64,000 bases of DNA from Saprospiraceae bacterium (GTDB lineage: Bacteria > Bacteroidota > Bacteroidia > Chitinophagales > Saprospiraceae), in contig JANWXM010000017.1 of assembly GCA_025055285.1 (NCBI GenBank), forward strand, positions 1 to 64,000. The letters are read 5' to 3'. Positions 4,000 to 42,723 of this stretch are shown here, piece by piece (within the stretch, counting starts at the first letter, position 1; each line of letters begins with the position of its first letter). Under the pieces are notes generated by a model. It had not been told where the DNA came from. It saw only the letters and a program-made list of their open reading frames with translations, and made no database searches. The position numbers and the translations under genes were made by a program.

Positions 4000-4658
4000 A
4001 GCATCTGTGCTGCCAAGCGCCAAAGAGTATCTGTTTGTGGCAAAGGCGCCTCTAGGCACAACTTCTGCCCTGACAGCGGATGGTCAAAGCTCAGGCGCCA
4101 AGCATGCAAGTGAATGGAACGGTTAGTGTTTGCTCGCCGTGCTCCATAGCGCACGTCGCCTTTAACAGGGCATCTTATGGCAGCTAATTGAGCCCGTATT
4201 TGGTGGTGGCGCCCCGTAATTGGCTGTACCCACAAAAAGGCATACCGCTCGCTACGTCCGAGAAGGCGATACCTCAGTACTGCACGCACGGCGGAAGGTC
4301 GTTCCTCATCGCAAGCATAAACGCGTTGGCTGCGAGAATTCCGAATCAAAAAATGGGTAAGCTCACCCTCGCTTCTAGGTGGTGTACCGGCCACAACAGC
4401 GAGATATTCCTTGCATACCTTGCGCTGTTGAAATTGTGTTTGCAACAGGGTCATTGCTTGCGCCGTCTTTGCCAGCAACATTAGCCCGCTAACTGGCCGG
4501 TCGAGGCGATTTACGAGATGTAGCGGTTGCTTCCACCGACTTTCCGCCCAGGTCAATAATGAAGAGTCGCCACTCAGATCTGGCTGCGCAGGCATACCTG
4601 CTGGCTTGTAAAGCCCGAGTAAGACGTCGTCTTCATAACACAATTGGGGGTCGAGCAT
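3957..4658 (-). CDS. RluA-family RNA pseudouridine synthase
   Basis: Isomerises uridine to pseudouridine in rRNA or tRNA. The catalytic motif II appears as NRLDRPVSGLMLLAKT, with catalytic Asp53. The usual HRLD histidine is Asn here, as in several small RluA proteins. ITGRHHQIRAQLA and HLHAWRLSF are the conserved C-terminal elements. At 233 residues it lacks an S4 domain, like RluA/TruC-type enzymes. The start codon directly follows the stop of the upstream small gene, so they form an operon. The RNA target cannot be told from sequence. Confidence 0.88.
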   Translation of the reverse strand: MLDPQLCYEDDVLLGLYKPAGMPAQPDLSGDSSLLTWAESRWKQPLHLVNRLDRPVSGLMLLAKTAQAMTLLQTQFQQRKVCKEYLAVVAGTPPRSEGELTHFLIRNSRSQRVYACDEERPSAVRAVLRYRLLGRSERYAFLWVQPITGRHHQIRAQLAAIRCPVKGDVRYGARRANTNRSIHLHAWRLSFDHPLSGQKLCLEAPLPQTDTLWRLAAQMLQQFSEEDDASARQ

Positions 4659-4958
4659 TTAATAGTGCAATTTTCGAATTATCATGTCCGCTAAAGGGTC
4701 GGCATAAATTCCGTAACCGTTTATTAAGATACCCTTCGAGCCATCCTTCAGGGAGGAAATGGCATACAGCACTGCCTGGTCGTCAGCAGCCGAGTCTACG
4801 TCAAAGCGATAGACTGCATCGATGTGGAACATCTCCGGCGAGAGCTCAGCTTCTTCCCCTTCTTGAGAGAGGCATTTGTACTTTGCGCTAAAGTCTTCTG
4901 TATAACCCTCTTGCTTGAGCCCTTCGATAGCTTCTATTAATGAAGAATAAGTTCTCAT
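4659..4958 (-). CDS. Small conserved Bacteroidota protein ('phosphoribosylpyrophosphate synthetase'-annotated family)
   Basis: A 99-residue soluble protein beginning MRTYSSLIEAIEGLKQEGY, with DAVYRFDVDSAADDQAVLYA and KGILINGYGIYAD. I recall a family of about 100-residue Bacteroidota proteins with this pattern that databases often label phosphoribosylpyrophosphate synthetase. It is far too short to be that enzyme, so the label should not be taken as function. The ATG at 4958 is preferred over a TTG two codons upstream. Its stop directly abuts the start of the pseudouridine synthase gene, implying co-transcription and possibly translational coupling. Confidence 0.75.
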   Translation of the reverse strand: MRTYSSLIEAIEGLKQEGYTEDFSAKYKCLSQEGEEAELSPEMFHIDAVYRFDVDSAADDQAVLYAISSLKDGSKGILINGYGIYADPLADMIIRKLHY

Positions 4959-4989
4959 GGTCAAAGAACGGACTATGTCTTCAGAAGAG

Positions 4990-5241
4990 TTAGCGAAAAG
5001 GACCTCTAGATGCTGCTCGTAAAGGTCTAACTTTTACTCCGATTTTGGTAACATCTTGAATGGCGATGCCCAAAACTGACGGGAATAGCCCCTGATAGGT
5101 TCCCTTATTTTTCTGAAAATAAAAATAAGGTATCGGAGCGAGCCAATTGACCAAGACAGGGTTAAAATCTATTTTTGTTATGAGCCTTGTCTGCAACGCA
5201 TTGACGAATGTGGCATTAGACTTTTTGTCTTTCGGCCTCTA
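4990..5241 (-). pseudogene. Possible gene remnant, unknown
   Basis: A minus-strand open frame without an ATG encodes about 80 codons, including SNATFVNALQTRLITKID, LVNWLAPIPYFYFQ and GLFPSVLGIAIQDVTKIGV. Composition is protein-like, but only TTG is available as a start and a TAG closes the frame upstream. It may be a gene remnant. A second minus frame at 5272-5520 (HIYYPYSHSICQMKQGWDAD) may belong to the same decayed region. Otherwise the 560-bp gap between 4958 and 5522 shows nothing I can name. Confidence 0.25.
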
Positions 5242-34943: not shown

Positions 34944-35390
34944 TTATCGACGAGGGTTAAGCACGTGCTCAAGGCTAAGTACAATTGGCGTCTCTAAAGC
35001 CTCATCTCCGTTTGGCATCCAGTCGAAAGTGCAGTGACAGCCCATACCCGCAACAGCATTGGCCAAACGACGTAGGTGACGTTCGCGCAAATGGCCCCGA
35101 TCATCAAGTGCGCCAACGACAATTCCATTGGCCTCACCTTTCAGAATACCTTAATATCGCCAAGCATAACTGAGAGCTTGCCCTTGTGGAGTAGCAAAAA
35201 TAGCTTTCGCGCGGGTGACAAATACGTACATCAGCAAATGCACACCCTTGCCTACAACCTATGGCAGGCCCGAAGAGGGCGTAAGACTGCACATCCTCAA
35301 CGCTGGATAGTTCATGTGCTGTACTCTAACAGCCTGAATAGCAAGTGCAGAAGAAAGGGTAGTAGCGCAAATTTCGAGAGTAAGGCAACG
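34944..35390 (-). pseudogene. cutC: Decayed copper-homeostasis gene cutC
   Basis: CutC is a TIM-barrel protein linked to copper handling. Its fragments occur in the right order in shifting minus-strand frames. LTLEICATTLSSALAIQA and SLTPSSGLP (to about 35260) match the start, L-E-V-C-x-x-S-x-x-S-A-L-A-A, and G-L-T-P-S. RICHPRESYFCYS (about 35180-35225) matches I-R-P-R-x-G-D-F-x-Y-S, and SVMLGDIK matches V-M-L-x-D-I. ANGIVVGALDDRGHLRERH, GCHCTFDWMPNGDEALE and LSLEHVLN (to 34944) match G-A-D-G-V-V-x-G-A-L, T-F-H-R-A-F-D and the R-V-L-T-S stretch. There are at least two frameshifts and a premature stop. The last third is missing. Confidence 0.7.
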
Positions 35391-35527
35391 TAAGGCTGCA
35401 TCCTCGTAGGTTGCAAAAATAGGAAATAGACCTTTGGAAAAGGAGGTACTTCTAAACGCAAAATCAGCAGCCCACTGAAGACCAATGAGCTGCTGAAGGG
35501 AGATTCTCGGTGAATGCAAAAGGTTCC

Positions 35528-36646
35528 TTACTTAGGCAAGATTTGCAACGCCCTTTCTAACTGATTGTCGCGCCCGCTAGATTTGAATAAGTTTACGTCA
35601 AAGGGCACCACTACATCCGGCGTAAAGCCGACGCCCTCGTAAAGTTTTCCGTCGACAAAGCGATATACTTCGGCTGCCATTTTGACCGTCCAACCATTTG
35701 GCAATTCGAAAGAACCCGCGTAGACAGAGTCTTCACCTTCCCTACCAAAGAGCACAGCAGACTGCGCACCAAAGGTAGTCTCACCCACCACGGTCACTTG
35801 AGGTAATACACTCAGCGCCATCGTAGTACGTTCGGCAGCACTAATCGACAAGGAGTTGCATAAAACCACCACGGGCAATGGATTGTACCCTTTTGGGTTA
35901 GGATATATCTTTTGCTGTACCCATGGACTAAATTCATTGCGATTACTGCCGTACTTGTATCGAGACTCACCTACCAATAATTCTTTATCAGTAAAATTAC
36001 CCACAATCAAGGGAACCTCATCTGCGATTCCACCGCCATTTTGGCGCAAATCCAGAATAACTCCCTTGTACTGAGGCGCCGGTTTGGCCATAAATTCGAG
36101 CATCTCGAGGAAAAACTGCGGATTGCTGGCAAGGCCTTTAAATATACTGAAACTTGGAATTCTAATATACTGATACTTGTTATCAAGCACACCATAGACG
36201 AAACCTTGAAACTTCTTTCGCGTTCCAGGCGATAAACGGTTGAATATCTTGGTCTCAAAATACTCGTCGTCTAACAGGAAATGATAATTCGATATTTTGT
36301 CATTAACAAAACCCGGAGAATATAAGGCTACTACTGTATCTATTGTCACTTGTATTTCGTAATGACCATCTATTAGTCCATCAATCATTTCATCGAATAT
36401 CTCTGCCAATTCTAAATCTGTCGTTTGGTCGGTTACTTTATTAACATATTTATCGTAGACCTCATCCCAATTGGTGGGATCATACCCCCAAAAAGAATAC
36501 TTTCGGCTCATGCCGTCCCAGAAGGCCTGAAAATTTCCCTTAGGTGTGTTAGGATAGCGATCAAATTCGACGAAAGGTTCTTCTTTGACGCATCCTAGGA
36601 TAAACAAGGAGAAAAACAGTGGTGGCAATAAATGCTTAATTTTCAT
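35528..36646 (-). CDS. S41-family peptidase lipoprotein, copy A
   Basis: An exported lipoprotein of 372 residues (signal LPPLFFSLFILGC, lipidated Cys19). The S41 core has VILDLRQNGGGIADEVPLIV, and SLSISAAERTTMAL holds the nucleophile Ser (near 267). The Lys of Prc-type enzymes is Ala in VVGETTFGAQSA, but IDGLIDGHYEIQ carries the N-terminal D-G-H of S41B/tricorn-like members, where a His is the likely base. No PDZ domain is evident. It is the last gene of a three-gene set transcribed from 37854. The paralogue at 38352 is similar throughout. The substrate is unknown. Confidence 0.85.
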   Translation of the reverse strand: MKIKHLLPPLFFSLFILGCVKEEPFVEFDRYPNTPKGNFQAFWDGMSRKYSFWGYDPTNWDEVYDKYVNKVTDQTTDLELAEIFDEMIDGLIDGHYEIQVTIDTVVALYSPGFVNDKISNYHFLLDDEYFETKIFNRLSPGTRKKFQGFVYGVLDNKYQYIRIPSFSIFKGLASNPQFFLEMLEFMAKPAPQYKGVILDLRQNGGGIADEVPLIVGNFTDKELLVGESRYKYGSNRNEFSPWVQQKIYPNPKGYNPLPVVVLCNSLSISAAERTTMALSVLPQVTVVGETTFGAQSAVLFGREGEDSVYAGSFELPNGWTVKMAAEVYRFVDGKLYEGVGFTPDVVVPFDVNLFKSSGRDNQLERALQILPK

Positions 36647-36654
36647 AATGGATG

Positions 36655-37437
36655 CTAGATTTTTCTATTAATAGGAATAGTTAGTCCTATGCTGAGAAGA
36701 TAGCCTACGTTCTTACGCTTTTGAAAGTCCCTCACCTCTCTTGTGGTTGTGTAAATGGAGGAAAGACCGCGCATTGCATCAAAAGATGCAAACAGGCGCA
36801 GGCCGCTCTTTATGCGGTACTTTAACCCTCCTCCAGCCCAAAAACCAAAATCTAACCTATTTTCTGTTATACCCGTGTCGTCGTTCTCAGAAAACTCATA
36901 TGGCGCTTCAAAGTCTAATGAGGTAAATTGGCCTGGATCATAGTTCTCGTCATATGGGTTGTCCAATATTCGCGGAACCTTTCCCGTCCACTTACCGCTG
37001 AGCCAATAGGCGCCGTACATACCGGCCTTAACAAAAGGCGAAAACTTTGTATCGAACAATTCTACTGCAATACCAACCGGTATGTTCAAGTAGGTACGTA
37101 CTAGTGTATAGTCTTGATAGTCTGCAAACTTCTGGATAGTCTCAACCCTTTGGCCGCGTTGGATAACATTCAGACCGAAGGTTGCCAACACACGCGGTGC
37201 CAGGGAGTAGTGCACTTCTAGACCCGGATACTGCCACCTCTCGACGTAATTATAACGCCAGAAAGGTCTGTCTGAAAAATCCATCTCTACAGCGTTGTTG
37301 ATCGAGCCGAAACTCAAACCAACGTGCCAGCCTGTGGGCTGCTTCTGCGGCGCCGGACGCCCTGCCGGCTTGCTCTGAGCTAAGCATAGCTGCTGAACCG
37401 ACAACAAACCAATAACAAAAACAACGATACCTTTCAT
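36655..37437 (-). CDS. Outer-membrane beta-barrel protein, copy A
   Basis: A 260-residue protein with signal peptide MKGIVVFVIGLLSVQQLCLA. It then shows alternating aromatic and polar strands ending in aromatic residues (GWHVGLSFGS, LEVHYSLAPRVLATFGLNVI, NLGVGYLLSIGLTI-like end), typical of the PorT/OMP_b-brl_2 8-stranded barrel. The ATG at 37437 is chosen as it starts the signal; the open frame extends upstream into the preceding gene. The N-terminal 45 residues lie inside the tract identical to copy B, while the rest has diverged. The S41 gene follows 8 nt after. Confidence 0.8.
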   Translation of the reverse strand: MKGIVVFVIGLLSVQQLCLAQSKPAGRPAPQKQPTGWHVGLSFGSINNAVEMDFSDRPFWRYNYVERWQYPGLEVHYSLAPRVLATFGLNVIQRGQRVETIQKFADYQDYTLVRTYLNIPVGIAVELFDTKFSPFVKAGMYGAYWLSGKWTGKVPRILDNPYDENYDPGQFTSLDFEAPYEFSENDDTGITENRLDFGFWAGGGLKYRIKSGLRLFASFDAMRGLSSIYTTTREVRDFQKRKNVGYLLSIGLTIPINRKI

Positions 37438-37802
37438 ATGACCATTTTTTTCTAGTTCTGACCGCGTTTGATGAGGACATAACGCGTCAAAATGCACGGC
37501 GGCTTGCCCGTCTCTGTCTTGGGCTGTGTGGAAGCCGTCGCCGTTAAAATGCTCCAACCCTTCTTCTGAAGTTCCGTCAGCCGCTTGGCTACAACCGAGT
37601 CGTTCGAGTTAATCTTCTTCTCGCTGATGTACCCTCCAAACGAATACAGCCCTCTCAAGGGCACCTCTTCCGTTCTTCCGTCCGGGGTAGTGATGTACAA
37701 GCGCGATTCGCTGCCATCGAGAAGATCCAAGTACTCAACGGTCGTCATAATGATGATGCTCTCCTCCTGGGCGCCCAACTGCAGCACACCAAAGAGCAAA
37801 AA
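37306..37802. repeat. 497-bp identical repeat, copy A
   Basis: Identical base for base, on reading both copies, to 40134-40630 (offset 2828). It spans the first 44 codons of the barrel gene, the 14-nt gap and all but the first 12 codons of the small exported gene. Similarity drops sharply at both ends. This looks like recent gene conversion within an older tandem duplication. Confidence 0.85.
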
Positions 37803-37835
37803 GCTTAGCACTAAACAATACTGAAAGTTACGCAT
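37452..37835 (-). CDS. Small exported protein, copy A (DUF4177-like)
   Basis: A 127-residue protein with signal peptide (CLVLSFLLFGVLQLGAQ). The mature part has VEYLDLLDGSESRLYITTP and then VAKRLTELQKKGWSILTATA and ILTRYVLIKRGQN. The N-E-L-x-x-x-G-W-x-L and terminal Y-x-L-x-K-R pattern recalls DUF4177-like proteins, which have no known function. From LLFGVLQLGAQ on, the DNA is identical to copy B at 40280; only the first 12 codons differ. It is the first gene of the set, with a -7 box and a conserved 14-bp upstream element. Confidence 0.75.
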   Translation of the reverse strand: MRNFQYCLVLSFLLFGVLQLGAQEESIIIMTTVEYLDLLDGSESRLYITTPDGRTEEVPLRGLYSFGGYISEKKINSNDSVVAKRLTELQKKGWSILTATASTQPKTETGKPPCILTRYVLIKRGQN

Positions 37836-37853
37836 AGGTCATTGTATTTAGTA

Positions 37854-37861
37854 CAAAAGTA
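37854..37861 (-). promoter_or_regulatory. Promoter -7 box TACTTTTG of gene set A
   Basis: An exact TAnnTTTG box, 18 nt ahead of the ATG at 37835. The matching copy B box is at 40681, in the same context (CACAAAAGTAT or TACAAAAGTAT on the plus strand). Confidence 0.6.
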
Positions 37862-37913
37862 TGGAAGCCTACTATTGACAGTTAAATAAGATGTGATAAA
37901 TCGGCTTCTCTTA

Positions 37914-37927
37914 ATGACCAACGGGCT
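37914..37927 (-). promoter_or_regulatory. Conserved 14-bp upstream element, copy A (possible LytTR site)
   Basis: AGCCCGTTGGTCAT on the minus strand, identical at 40741-40754. Both lie 53 bp upstream of a TACTTTTG box, though the bases between have diverged. The core CCGTTGGTC is one base from the AlgR consensus CCGTTCGTC. The neighbouring LytTR regulator (42025) is the obvious candidate to bind it. Confidence 0.45.
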
Positions 37928-38351
37928 TAACTTTGAGAAATAGCAAGAGATAAGACTTAAATTTCTTCATCCACTTTTTGGATTTCAATGAGTGCGGTAA
38001 TAGCCCCTTACCAAAAAAGGAGAAAAACTCATACTTCTCACCAACTGGCTGACCAGACTGGTCACGAATCTTTGGATTTCTACGCGAACAGCCAGCCAAC
38101 ACGGAATGCAAGCCTAAAAAAAGAAATTCTTCCTCAACTGAGGCAAAAGAAATCAGCACCCAATTTTTAGATTCCTGCCTGCATAACCAACTGTTTCAGA
38201 ATATAAATAAAGGTTCTTACAGTTCATTGACAACAACACAGCGCCGTTTGAAGGGCATCTCAATGCTCACATCTCCTTCAAAAACAATAGCCCGCCGCTG
38301 TTGACGACGAGCTACCGAATAAAAAAATCTCAGGACTTCGGTGTATTTCCC
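37928..38351. other. Spacer between gene sets A and B
   Basis: About 420 bp without a credible gene. On the minus strand, 43 open codons continue in frame after the S41 copy B stop (38352) down to 38217, with protein-like parts such as RRAIVFEGDVSIEMPFKRR. This may be a remnant or a lost C-terminal extension. No counterpart follows copy A. Confidence 0.35.
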
Positions 38352-39470
38352 TTATTTAGGTAAAATCTCTAGTGCCTTTTCTAGTTGATTATCAAAACCA
38401 GTAGCCTTAAAACGCGCAACATCGAGTGGAACAACTACGTCCGGTGGAAAGCCGACGCCCTCGTATAATTGCCCGTCTGCGAAGCGATACACTTCAAAAG
38501 CAGATACAACGAGCCAGCCATTTGGCAGGGAAAATGACCCTGCGTATTGTAAATTTCGACCTACCTTATTTGGGTAGATGGCAGATTGTGCGCCAAACGT
38601 TCTTTCACCCACGACCGTAACTTGAGGTAAAAGGCTGAGAGCCATAGTGGTTCGTTCTGCAGAGGACACCGAAAAGCCATCGCACAACACTACCATTGGC
38701 AAGCGATTTTTGCTCTCTGGATTCGGCACGACCTTTACAGGCACCCAAGGAGTAAACTCATTGCGATTACTTCCGTATTTGGTCTTCGACTCTCCCACTA
38801 CTAGTTCTTTGTCTGTGAAATTGCCCACTATTAAAGAAATTTCATCCGGATTGCCGCCAGTATTAGCTCGCAAATCCAGGATCACGCCCTTTATCTCAGG
38901 ACCTGGATTCGCCATAAACTCAAATAAATCAACCACAAACTGAGGGTTTTCTCCTGCGACGTTAAAAATATCAAACTCTGGTAAGTGAATATATTGATAT
39001 TTATTGTTGAGCACTCCATAGACGAAACCCTTGTATTTTTTCCTTGTACCTGGCGCCAAACGGTTGAAAAGTTTGCCTTCAAAATACGCCTTATCTAGAA
39101 GAAAATGGTATTTTTCGAGGTTTTCATTAACTTTACCCGGATATATTTCGAATTCTAGCGTATCAATTTGTACTAAAATTTTGTAATGGCAATCGATTAG
39201 GGTTTCTACCATTTCTTTAAATATGTCAGCCAGCTCCGATGGAGAGGTTTCATCTGTTACCTGCTTCTCGTATTTTTCATAGATAGCATCCCAATCGGTA
39301 GGGTCGTACTCCCAAAAGGCATATCTTCGATTCATACCGTCCCAAAAAGCTTGAAAGTTTCCCTTTGGAGTATTTGGATATCGCTCAGGCTCTACAAGAG
39401 GGTCCTCCTTTATGCAACCAAAAAATAGGAACAGTGTCAAAAATGAAATAAAAAGTTTACCCTTTCTCAT
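38352..39470 (-). CDS. S41-family peptidase lipoprotein, copy B
   Basis: Paralogue of the gene at 35528, with the same 372-residue length and gene order. The signal is FISFLTLFLFFGC (lipidated Cys). VILDLRANTGGNPDEISLIV and GFSVSSAERTTMALSLLPQV (nucleophile Ser) form the S41 core. The Prc-type Lys is again Ala (VVGERTFGAQSA). TLIDCHYKI replaces the D-G-H of copy A with D-C-H but keeps the His. The two proteins are alike over their whole length yet clearly diverged, unlike the identical tract upstream, so they may differ in substrate. Confidence 0.85.
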   Translation of the reverse strand: MRKGKLFISFLTLFLFFGCIKEDPLVEPERYPNTPKGNFQAFWDGMNRRYAFWEYDPTDWDAIYEKYEKQVTDETSPSELADIFKEMVETLIDCHYKILVQIDTLEFEIYPGKVNENLEKYHFLLDKAYFEGKLFNRLAPGTRKKYKGFVYGVLNNKYQYIHLPEFDIFNVAGENPQFVVDLFEFMANPGPEIKGVILDLRANTGGNPDEISLIVGNFTDKELVVGESKTKYGSNRNEFTPWVPVKVVPNPESKNRLPMVVLCDGFSVSSAERTTMALSLLPQVTVVGERTFGAQSAIYPNKVGRNLQYAGSFSLPNGWLVVSAFEVYRFADGQLYEGVGFPPDVVVPLDVARFKATGFDNQLEKALEILPK

Positions 39471-39476
39471 GACTAA

Positions 39477-40265
39477 CTATTTTGTAACATTCTTATTTAT
39501 GGAAATTGTTGCACCTATCTGAATGATGTAAGTTAGGTTGTAGCGCGCTTCGAAACCTCGAACTCCCTTTGTGTCCGAATAAATAGGTAATAGGCCTCTT
39601 GAGGCATTAAATCCAATGAAAGCAAGTAATCCTTTTTTGGTTTTGTATTGCAAACCAAAACCACCCCATCCTCCAAAATCTAAACGATTCTCTCTTATGC
39701 CCGTACTTTCTGACTGACCAAATGTATATGGAGCCTCAAAATCAATCGCTGGAAGCTTAGAACGATCGTAGCCTTCCTCGTAAGGATTACTCATTGTAAG
39801 TAACATGCTTCCCTTCCATTTTCCACTCATCCAGAAGGCTCCGTATATTCCTGCACTTATGTAGGGCGACAAACGTGTGTCGAATAGAGCTATGGATAGT
39901 CCAATAGGCACATTCAAATAATTTCTCACAAGCAGAATGTCGTTGACTCCTGCATATTGTCGAATTGTCTTTACTTGTTGCCCTCTTTGCAAAATGTTCA
40001 CGCCAAGAGTGGCCCGTAGGCGAGAAGACAAGGCACGATGTACCTCTAGACCCGGATATTGCCACCCCTCGGCAAAATCGTAACGCCAAAAGGGCTTGTC
40101 TGAGAAGTCCATTTCTACGACGTTGTTTGCCAGGCCGAAACTCAAACCAACGTGCCAGCCTGTGGGCTGCTTCTGCGGCGCCGGACGCCCTGCCGGCTTG
40201 CTCTGAGCTAAGCATAGCTGCTGAACCGACAACAAACCAATAACAAAAACAACGATACCTTTCAT
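39477..40265 (-). CDS. Outer-membrane beta-barrel protein, copy B
   Basis: A 262-residue paralogue of the protein at 36655, with an identical signal peptide and mature N-terminus up to about residue 44 and diverged strands after that (LEVHRALSSRLRATLGVNIL, GIYGAFWMSGKWKG, FGGWGGFGLQYKTKKGLLAF). It ends with an aromatic-poor strand and NVTK. The start at 40265 marks the signal peptide. The frame is open upstream because of the preceding gene. It probably sits in the outer membrane with the S41 lipoprotein made from the same transcript. Confidence 0.8.
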   Translation of the reverse strand: MKGIVVFVIGLLSVQQLCLAQSKPAGRPAPQKQPTGWHVGLSFGLANNVVEMDFSDKPFWRYDFAEGWQYPGLEVHRALSSRLRATLGVNILQRGQQVKTIRQYAGVNDILLVRNYLNVPIGLSIALFDTRLSPYISAGIYGAFWMSGKWKGSMLLTMSNPYEEGYDRSKLPAIDFEAPYTFGQSESTGIRENRLDFGGWGGFGLQYKTKKGLLAFIGFNASRGLLPIYSDTKGVRGFEARYNLTYIIQIGATISINKNVTK

Positions 40266-40630
40266 ATGACCATTTTTTTCTAGTTCTGACCGCGTTTGAT
40301 GAGGACATAACGCGTCAAAATGCACGGCGGCTTGCCCGTCTCTGTCTTGGGCTGTGTGGAAGCCGTCGCCGTTAAAATGCTCCAACCCTTCTTCTGAAGT
40401 TCCGTCAGCCGCTTGGCTACAACCGAGTCGTTCGAGTTAATCTTCTTCTCGCTGATGTACCCTCCAAACGAATACAGCCCTCTCAAGGGCACCTCTTCCG
40501 TTCTTCCGTCCGGGGTAGTGATGTACAAGCGCGATTCGCTGCCATCGAGAAGATCCAAGTACTCAACGGTCGTCATAATGATGATGCTCTCCTCCTGGGC
40601 GCCCAACTGCAGCACACCAAAGAGCAAAAA
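40134..40630. repeat. 497-bp identical repeat, copy B
   Basis: Partner of 37306-37802. First mismatches are at 40132-40133 on one side and 40631 on the other. Confidence 0.85.
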
Positions 40631-40663
40631 CATCAAACTGAGAAGACGCCGGCATTTACTCAT
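40280..40663 (-). CDS. Small exported protein, copy B (DUF4177-like)
   Basis: 127 residues. The signal is MSKCRRLLSLMFLLFGVLQL. From LLFGVLQLGAQ to the C-terminus it is identical in DNA and protein to copy A. The ATG at 40663 is preferred over a frame extending to 40762, since the -7 box at 40681 lies between. Keeping the mature protein identical while the downstream genes diverge could reflect shared dosage or a common partner, or only recent conversion. Function unknown. Confidence 0.75.
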   Translation of the reverse strand: MSKCRRLLSLMFLLFGVLQLGAQEESIIIMTTVEYLDLLDGSESRLYITTPDGRTEEVPLRGLYSFGGYISEKKINSNDSVVAKRLTELQKKGWSILTATASTQPKTETGKPPCILTRYVLIKRGQN

Positions 40664-40680: not shown

Positions 40681-40688
40681 CAAAAGTA
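40681..40688 (-). promoter_or_regulatory. Promoter -7 box TACTTTTG of gene set B
   Basis: An exact TAnnTTTG box, 17 nt ahead of the ATG at 40663. It decides that start against the longer open frame. Confidence 0.6.
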
Positions 40689-40740
40689 TTGGAGCACTCT
40701 GTTGGCAACACACTAGAATGTGATGAACAGCCCTTTTCCG

Positions 40741-40754
40741 ATGACCAACGGGCT
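40741..40754 (-). promoter_or_regulatory. Conserved 14-bp upstream element, copy B (possible LytTR site)
   Basis: AGCCCGTTGGTCAT on the minus strand, identical to 37914-37927 and again 53 bp from the -7 box. About 21 bp further toward the promoter, GCTGTTCATC resembles a second half-site, as expected for LytTR direct repeats. In copy A the second half-site is weak. Confidence 0.45.
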
Positions 40755-41000: not shown

Positions 41001-42050
41001 ATGTTAAAAAAGAAGGCTTTAATCCATATTATATTTTGGTTCATCTTTCTATTCCCTGCCTTTTTAGAATTAGAATGGCCCTTGTCAAAAGGGGAGTCTG
41101 TTCTAGCACTGAACGTTATCCTCATAGCGCCCATGTTCTTTTATTGGATCAGTGGATGGGTAATGCCTCGGCTGGTACGCGCAGGTAAGCGACAGTACCT
41201 ATATTGGCTTATTGCGCTAAGTAGTTGTCTTGTGTGGTCTTGGATTCACATGCAAACAGAGACATGGATTGGGCGCAATTTTTTCGAAGAAATGCCGCCT
41301 CAGCCCAGCTTTGTTGAGTACTTTGTTGGAATGTTGTGGTTCATGGCAACGGCTATTGGCATCTCCTTCATGCAGTACTGGTATGAAAACCAAATAAAAG
41401 AGGAGGAGATAAAGCACTTGCAGCTCAAATCCGAATTGAATTTGTTGCGCTATCGAATTAATCCTCACTTTCTCTTCAATACGCTCAATAGTCTTTACGC
41501 GTTTGCTCTAGAAAAATCGGATAAGACAGCGGAAATCGTTCTCAGGTTATCTGGGTTAATGCGTTACATGCTTCGATGTGAGGATGTATTAGTGCCTCTA
41601 AGTGATGAACTATCTTACATAGATGATTACATAGCTTTGGAGCGCCTGCGCTTAGACCAAGAGGTATCTATAAAACTAAGTATTGAGGGCAGCCCAGAAG
41701 GTCTGTATATTGCTCCCATGTTACTGCTGCCATTTGTTGAAAATAGCTTTAAGCACGGTCTAAGCGGTTCCATTTCCAAACGTTACGTAGAAATAGTGAT
41801 TCATATTGAAGAGGACTCTCTCTTCATGTATGTAGAAAATAGCAAGCATGCTGTGCATACGATGCATCAAGAAGGTTTCAAAGGAAGGGAAGGCATAGGT
41901 TTACCGACGGTCAAGCGGCGCCTAGAAATTATGTATGGCCCGGACAAATACCACTTAGAAATAGAGGATATGTCAGACAAGTATCGAGTGAACTTATACT
42001 TAAAACTTCAAAGGAAGATGGACTATGCGCTGCTTGATAGTAGAGGATGA
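41001..42050 (+). CDS. LytS-type sensor histidine kinase (His_kinase PF06580 family)
   Basis: A 349-residue inner-membrane kinase. Four hydrophobic segments (ALIHIIFWFIFLFPAFLEL onward) form the sensor part, with no extracellular domain of size. A short coiled coil (ENQIKEEEIKHLQLKSELNL) leads into the kinase domain. The phosphoacceptor box is YRINPHFLFNTLNSLYAF (His near 155). LLLPFVENSFKHGL is the N-box of the ATPase and GREGIGLPTVKRRLEIMYG the G-box. The response regulator overlaps its 3' end by 26 bp. It faces away from the duplicated secreted genes across a 340-bp shared upstream region. Confidence 0.93.
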   Translation: MLKKKALIHIIFWFIFLFPAFLELEWPLSKGESVLALNVILIAPMFFYWISGWVMPRLVRAGKRQYLYWLIALSSCLVWSWIHMQTETWIGRNFFEEMPPQPSFVEYFVGMLWFMATAIGISFMQYWYENQIKEEEIKHLQLKSELNLLRYRINPHFLFNTLNSLYAFALEKSDKTAEIVLRLSGLMRYMLRCEDVLVPLSDELSYIDDYIALERLRLDQEVSIKLSIEGSPEGLYIAPMLLLPFVENSFKHGLSGSISKRYVEIVIHIEEDSLFMYVENSKHAVHTMHQEGFKGREGIGLPTVKRRLEIMYGPDKYHLEIEDMSDKYRVNLYLKLQRKMDYALLDSRG

Positions 42051-42723
42051 GCCACCGGCACAGCTCATCTTAGAGAGATACATTTCTCAGACCAAAGGCT
42101 TGAGCTTAGTGGGCATATGCAGCGATGCTATGGAGGCTATGGCTGTGCTGAAACGAGAACCAGTTGACCTTATGTTTCTGGATATTCAGATGCCAGAAGT
42201 GGATGGTCTGCAATTTTTAAAGTACCTGGGCGCTCGAGCGCCAAAGGTCGTTTTGACCACGGCCTATGATAACTACGCTCTTACTGCTTACGACTTAGAC
42301 GTAATTGATTACTTAGTAAAACCTATTTCTTACGAGCGCTTTCTGCGAGCTGTGACAAAGGTTACGCGCGTATCTCCTACTTTTGGCGAACCTCCTCCCC
42401 CTGCGAAGAACAGCCCTTATGTTTTTCTAAAAGCAGACAGAAAACTACATAAGATAAACCTAAATGACATTATCTACATAGAGGGTTTGAGTAATTACTT
42501 AAAAGTATTCTTACAAAAAGACATGCTTGTTATTCGGGAGACAATGAGTAAGATGGAGGAGCTTTTACCCTCGGATATATTTGCTCGAGTGCACAAGTCT
42601 TACCTAGTCAATATGGTACATATAATATACATCGAAAAGAACATAGTTGTCACTCCTCGAGGTACGGTGCCAATTGGCGAATCTTATGCACAGGATTTCT
42701 TTGAACGCATTAGACGCAGATAG
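42025..42723 (+). CDS. LytTR-family response regulator
   Basis: 232 residues. The receiver domain has CLIVEDEPPAQLILERY, phosphoacceptor Asp53 in LMFLDIQMPEVDG and the conserved Lys in DVIDYLVKPISYERF. A short linker (SPTFGEPPPPAKNSP) is followed by the LytTR DNA-binding domain with YVFLKADRKLHKINLNDI, IIYIEGLSNYLKVFL and FARVHKSYLVN. Partner of the overlapping LytS-type kinase. LytTR proteins bind direct repeats upstream of target genes. The AGCCCGTTGGTCAT boxes near the duplicated genes are the best candidates seen here. Confidence 0.94.
   Translation: MRCLIVEDEPPAQLILERYISQTKGLSLVGICSDAMEAMAVLKREPVDLMFLDIQMPEVDGLQFLKYLGARAPKVVLTTAYDNYALTAYDLDVIDYLVKPISYERFLRAVTKVTRVSPTFGEPPPPAKNSPYVFLKADRKLHKINLNDIIYIEGLSNYLKVFLQKDMLVIRETMSKMEELLPSDIFARVHKSYLVNMVHIIYIEKNIVVTPRGTVPIGESYAQDFFERIRRR

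Follow-up and report, generated by a model that had tools for sequence, protein, structure and literature searches.

A tandemly duplicated envelope operon of a Saprospiraceae bacterium and its 497-nt tract of probable recent gene conversion

Two tandem operons and their identical tract

The window analysed here is a stretch of 64,000 nucleotides (nt) from a Saprospiraceae bacterium, located on contig 8 of a draft genome that comprises 3,616,589 bases in 93 contigs. On its minus strand it carries two tandem operons, each with the gene order small exported protein, outer-membrane β-barrel and S41 peptidase (in the following small, barrel and S41). Copy 2 (40663 to 38352) adjoins a histidine kinase/response regulator pair on the plus strand (41001-42723), and copy 1 (37835 to 35528) comes next. 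That these three genes occur twice and in the same order had been proposed in a preliminary description of this DNA and is confirmed by open reading frames (ORFs) and Pfam matches. The duplicated features exceed the region 35528-40663 considered there, as they reach putative operators at 37892-37922 and 40719-40749. The features of the locus are as follows.

35528-36646, minus: S41-1, S41 peptidase of 372 amino acids (aa) with a Tricorn_C1 domain and, judged by eye, a lipoprotein-like start
36655-37437, minus: barrel-1, outer-membrane β-barrel of 260 aa (Pfam OMP_b-brl_2, E 1.5e-8)
37452-37835, minus: small-1, 127 aa with a signal-peptide-like start, no Pfam match above cut-off
37306-37802, minus: identical tract of 497 nt, copy 1, from codon 12 of small-1 to its stop, through a gap of 14 nt and the first 44 codons of barrel-1
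37854-37861, minus: TAnnTTTG box, copy 1, 30 nt past the operator
37892-37922, minus: candidate LytTR-like operator, copy 1, 56 nt 5' of the small-1 ATG
38352-39470, minus: S41-2, S41 peptidase of 372 aa, 65% identical to S41-1
39477-40265, minus: barrel-2, 262 aa, matching OMP_b-brl_2 only below cut-off (E 0.012)
40280-40663, minus: small-2, 127 aa, same as small-1 inside the tract; its family leans to DUF4177
40134-40630, minus: identical tract of 497 nt, copy 2
40681-40688, minus: TAnnTTTG box, copy 2, 30 nt past the operator
40719-40749, minus: candidate LytTR-like operator, copy 2, 55 nt 5' of the small-2 ATG
41001-42050, plus: divergent histidine kinase (His_kinase, PF06580), probable sensor
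42025-42723, plus: response regulator, LytTR DNA-binding domain, probably regulating both copies

Positions 37306-37802 and 40134-40630 agree at 497 of 497 positions, so that the base-for-base identity noticed previously by eye is exact on alignment, and the match cannot be extended by a single base at either end. The two tracts are direct repeats with a distance of 2828 nt from start to start, and no third copy is present in the draft genome. The tract begins within the signal-peptide codons of the small gene and stops 44 codons into the barrel. Its barrel part consists of the signal peptide followed by a linker and the beginning of the first strand (approximate, the model having a mean predicted local distance difference test score, pLDDT, of 64).

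Outside the tract identity lies mainly between 50 and 75% per 50 alignment columns, and the longest exact run is 18 nt in the two ungapped stretches scanned, which cover parts of S41 and barrel. Boundaries described as sharp are so on one side only. At the small-gene edge identity drops abruptly to 32% in the adjoining 25 nt, whereas at the barrel edge it slopes, with 68-76% over the next 100 nt and 48-56% thereafter. The alignment shows that this sloping segment is also conserved between species.

Divergence between the copies

The proportion of synonymous differences (pS) between copy 1 and copy 2 reaches 0.82 for S41 and, tract part included, 0.73 for the complete barrel gene, the barrel proteins being 62% identical over their entire length. 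For the complete small gene, counting also its start before the tract, pS is 0.05 and all differences precede the tract. This means that synonymous sites are saturated outside the tract and show zero change inside, and that the flanking coding sequence and the S41 genes are as clearly diverged as first suspected. For comparison three Saprospiraceae metagenome-assembled genomes (MAGs) with a related locus are available, namely SKYG121, N1_Bin 6 (N1) and H1_Bin 76 (H1). Between species the small protein retains 76-86% identity while pS of its gene amounts to 0.61-0.86. Since these synonymous sites differ strongly, the identity of the tract does not originate from selection on the protein. Within a bounded tract the paralogues are closer to each other than to their orthologues, synonymous sites included, and the duplication is older than the tract as judged from the S41 genes. 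Recent gene conversion within an older duplication, as proposed initially, is therefore well supported.

The accompanying idea that a constant small core is combined with diversifying partners finds no support: the tract runs across gene borders, and small and S41 evolve at about the same pace. Between the single-copy relatives SKYG121 and N1 nonsynonymous divergence (dN) is 0.102 for small, 0.126 for S41 and 0.198 for barrel. Because the value of the small gene is near that of S41 and the barrel alone is faster, the small gene largely follows the rate of its neighbours, which is in large part the outcome named beforehand as a refutation, and its role as a shared core held constant is not supported.

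Relatives, regulation and age of the duplication

A search for the trio in relatives, suggested earlier with a view to copy number and conserved tract, led to three loci, all of them single-copy (two trios and one barrel-S41 pair); homogenisation in several species was accordingly not found. SKYG121 and N1 possess one complete trio each, flanked by the kinase/regulator pair on one side and by cutC on the other, and H1 has barrel and S41 only at this locus. The barrel is present in four of 42 genus genomes, including the one described here, and the small family in 39 of the 396 genomes sampled from the order (E <= 1e-8); both occur in two copies in this genome only. At the H1 locus (4447-5155) kinase, LytTR regulator, small gene and operator are jointly missing while barrel and S41 are kept. 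This joint absence looks as if the regulator had served the promoter of the small gene. The operator was not found in the 12,740 bases of the H1 locus, and the sole small-family gene found in H1 resides beside a lepA-like ORF near a contig end.

Nine small-family loci outside the trio (L006-L010, L051-L054) contain no S41 or barrel beyond chance within about 1.5 kb on each side (tblastn, E <= 1; L006 ends 121 bases upstream at its contig end), the only matches being two chance-level fragments of 22 aa (E 0.78) and 18 aa (E 0.14). A widespread trio system is not supported by these loci, and because the small family lives there without S41 or barrel, the trio seems to be a local assembly of parts that also exist apart. 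Among the titles and abstract openings listed by the literature search no description of a small-barrel-S41 trio was met. Among distant S41 relatives an ORF of 264-292 aa precedes S41 in all seven loci read (L016-L022) and could possibly be a widespread partner of such S41 proteins that has not been described so far.

A site of 31 nt matching GTTGGTCATYNNNNNARGSCNNNNNRTCACA is located 55-56 nt 5' of each small gene in the window and 59-60 nt in SKYG121 and N1. In both copies and in these two relatives it always lies 29-30 nt ahead of a TAnnTTTG box, which we take to be the Bacteroidota -7 element. The adjacent regulator presumably drives both copies via these predicted operators. As the tract lies downstream of both promoters, conversion leaves the regulation untouched.

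Concerning the age, the duplication is old. In an S41 tree with six outgroups copy 1 is placed together with the genes of SKYG121 and N1 (96/96), and copy 2 falls outside; a clade of copy 1 and copy 2 is disfavoured by the approximately unbiased test (p-AU 0.024, with a program warning about long branches), and the test does not reject (p 0.292) a clade that joins both copies to SKYG121 and N1 and leaves out H1. In 99% of resamples a distance quartet pairs copy 1 with SKYG121 and copy 2 with H1, and the same grouping is obtained in 60% if N1 replaces SKYG121. From these trees it is only likely that the duplication predates the species split.

These data suggest the following explanation, to which we assign a probability of about 0.78. 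An old tandem duplication would have produced two copies of an envelope operon for the small exported protein, the outer-membrane barrel and the S41 peptidase, which have a promoter and a LytTR-like operator each and lie next to a single divergent pair of histidine kinase and LytTR regulator. More recently, the copies would have undergone homologous recombination, probably of the RecA type and perhaps recurrent, by which 497 nt passed non-reciprocally from one copy to the other. The converted piece would extend from the signal peptide of the small gene to the start of the first barrel strand, and what remains of the barrel, like the peptidase, would be too diverged to pair and thus escape conversion.

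Several observations speak against parts of this scenario. With respect to the age, a concatenated tree of S41 and barrel without outgroup does not reject the copies as sisters (p-AU 0.287), and the quartet of copy 1, copy 2, SKYG121 and N1 slightly favours the copies together (0.816 vs 0.829). A simple recent origin of copy 2 from copy 1 is thus disfavoured by the S41 tree but allowed by the concatenated tree and by one of three quartets. With respect to the direction of transfer, the divergence ratio is 1.82 for the small-gene tract (interval 1.11-3.68) and 1.47 for the whole coding tract (1.04-2.21), and these intervals overlap the values outside the tract of both copy 1 (1.20) and copy 2 (2.02), naming no donor; small-tract tree topologies for the donor are likewise not rejected (p-AU 0.17 and 0.217). 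With <=3 mismatches allowed, the genome contains two sites of the operator pattern, one for each copy, but the pattern was built from the two window sites and two relatives and matches there by construction, so that its independent evidence consists in the lack of other genome matches only (the reversed control gave zero matches in the 3.6-Mb genome). Out of four repeat offsets tried within this site the best one is 21 nt (a 9-nt unit and a 12-nt gap) in all four sequences, with a weak match of 4-5 of 9 bases. According to the excerpt of PMC6193735 direct-repeat pairs of LytTR regulators are mainly 12 bp apart (some 11 or 13) and located upstream of the promoter, which the best offset fits, but here a separate histidine kinase/response regulator pair is concerned, the repeat match is weak and the site putative; the excerpts of PMC4227749 and PMC6222199 contain no usable repeat spacing. 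Finally, six of the seven ORFs upstream of distant S41 genes have no Pfam barrel match and the seventh matches weakly, below cut-off (an eighth locus, L060, stands outside this count). A kinase/regulator pair is found at one of eight distant S41 loci (L056), about 2.5 kb away, with a regulator-like match only in L057 and a LytTR-like ORF seen by eye in L020; as a general partner of S41 the pair was dismissed on this count.

Alternative explanations, parallels and putative function

The base composition of the tract is peculiar. Within it the small gene (37452-37802, minus strand) has a GC content at third codon positions (GC3) of 0.718, compared with 0.39-0.50 in neighbouring genes, 0.47-0.59 in ORFs of the ribosomal cluster (15 ORFs around L2, named by eye) and 0.640 in GroEL of the same genome. 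In the remainder of the 64 kb this value is not attained by any of 1125 overlapping 117-codon windows (maximum 0.658), and the orthologues have 0.607 (SKYG121) and 0.547 (N1). Most neighbours are poorer in GC3 than their orthologues, e.g., TolC with 0.459 vs 0.625 and 0.649, an exception being barrel-1 outside the tract (0.488 vs 0.403 and 0.463). In the small-gene tract 81 of 114 codons end with G or C, while 57.4 are expected from 24 window genes given the amino acids and 62.8 from the ribosomal-cluster ORFs and GroEL (p 0.00025), hence codon adaptation is insufficient as sole cause. One could imagine the tract as an island of repeated GC-biased conversion, in which repair bias over many rounds raised GC3 of the small gene. 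We consider this unlikely; it is weakened because the SKYG121 small gene is mildly GC3-rich as well (70/115 vs 58.2) and no enrichment beyond chance is seen in the barrel part of the tract (24/42 vs 20.8). GC-biased conversion, import and codon selection are all possible sources of the high GC3 at this one locus.

Quite improbable is also that both tracts were replaced by DNA imported from a GC-richer relative which then spread to the second copy. The extreme GC3 of the small gene in comparison with the window and the two orthologues would fit such an event, but the best matches outside the own genome among 60 relatives are the genes of N1 and SKYG121 (83% and 76%), and none of the 396 order genomes outscores SKYG121 by profile, a score that does not measure closeness to the window. 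Moreover, the barrel part lacks the enrichment, and a conversion step would still be required.

An assembly artefact, named at the outset as an outcome that would undermine the observation, would imply that the second tract or its perfect identity was made by the assembler or by repeat collapse. The genome is a fragmented draft and 497 nt exceed a typical short read; a collapse of a few differences between the copies may have happened. However, both flanks of both tracts differ and all six ORFs are open, so that four real junctions are needed, and two other MAGs show the same succession of kinase/regulator, small, barrel and S41. We regard an artefact as quite unlikely, too. Still less probable is a functional role of the direct repeats, in which recombination would delete or re-amplify the 2.8-kb unit and switch the barrel/S41 pair at the first promoter. 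The perfect repeats with their spacing would allow it and the deletion product would equal the single trio of SKYG121 and N1, but with a promoter box and operator in each copy there is nothing silent to switch, and no recombinase-like ORF was seen by eye in the listed region, where most ORFs were not searched for families. That the small protein, or its DNA, is kept identical by strong selection, as the conservation of this protein between species might suggest, is hardly credible, since this is already refuted by the synonymous sites (barring a DNA-level function unique to this species) and the identity does not end with the small gene but includes the 14-nt gap and 44 codons of the barrel start.

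Gene conversion of this kind has known parallels. In mtrA-1/mtrA-2 of methanogens (PMC4632066, in excerpt) an operon gene likewise exists in two copies with one stretch homogenised and the rest diverging, but there the phenomenon recurs over many species and follows a domain, whereas here it concerns one species and one tract that disregards gene boundaries. The tufA/tufB genes of Salmonella (PMC5485169, in excerpt) share the non-reciprocal copying between paralogues, and their fitted unrestricted walk, at about 1000 nt, has the same order of magnitude as the present 497 nt, but the tuf copies differ at 12 positions only while here the flanks have diverged by about 35-40%. In prokaryotes, long-lasting concerted evolution belongs to the same class of processes and is described as rare over long times in the excerpt of PMC6053082; in contrast, the relatives found here are single-copy. 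As far as the cited part of PMC4632066 goes, partial conversion of paralogues in an operon is already known, and the present locus is a clean example of a familiar process and not a new system. Its value is that a natural conversion tract is resolved here to single bases within a saturated duplication, and that relatives with one copy exist for comparison; apart from this, the event is an ordinary one in the evolution of an envelope operon not yet characterised. New is the possession of an own predicted operator and TAnnTTTG box by each copy beside a single kinase/regulator pair.

Both S41 proteins match the S41 peptidase family PF03572 above the curated cut-off (E 6.2e-24 for S41-1 and 2.2e-20 for S41-2), and Tricorn_C1 likewise. 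Residues H95, S269 and E337, to which we ascribe catalytic roles, are invariant in all five S41 proteins, and this fits an active peptidase. A sequence search of the PDB gave near-full-length matches of S41-1 with the putative peptidase 4l8k (E 4.3e-30) and protein Q5LIA5 in 8vcb (E 7.7e-28), matches that do not inform on operon and function. The barrel model has about eight to ten strands at modest confidence. In the small family five of seven members match DUF4177 (PF13783, best E 0.0012), but the window protein is not among them; its own best match is HTH_39 below cut-off (E 0.011). Its best model has a mean pLDDT of 74 (two of five models remain below 50), and against the PDB nothing was found at E <= 0.001, the best hit being the KCTD12 H1 domain (0.019). 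A DUF4177 protein of 66 aa is reported to have antibacterial activity (PMC11322243, in excerpt), but this function was not carried over to the window protein as it has no DUF4177 match.

The best functional reading would be an envelope protease-barrel module under dedicated two-component control. Under this reading the kinase/regulator pair would control both copies, peptidase and barrel would act together on an envelope or imported peptide substrate, and the small protein would be accessory. Peptide processing at the surface or in the periplasm with the partner barrel, induced by an outside signal, appears to be the most likely role.

Beside copy 1 the window contains a decayed cutC (34953-35462, minus strand), 40-45% identical to its counterparts in SKYG121, N1 and H1. 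It has two stops within the matched stretch and represents the sole CutC match in the genome.

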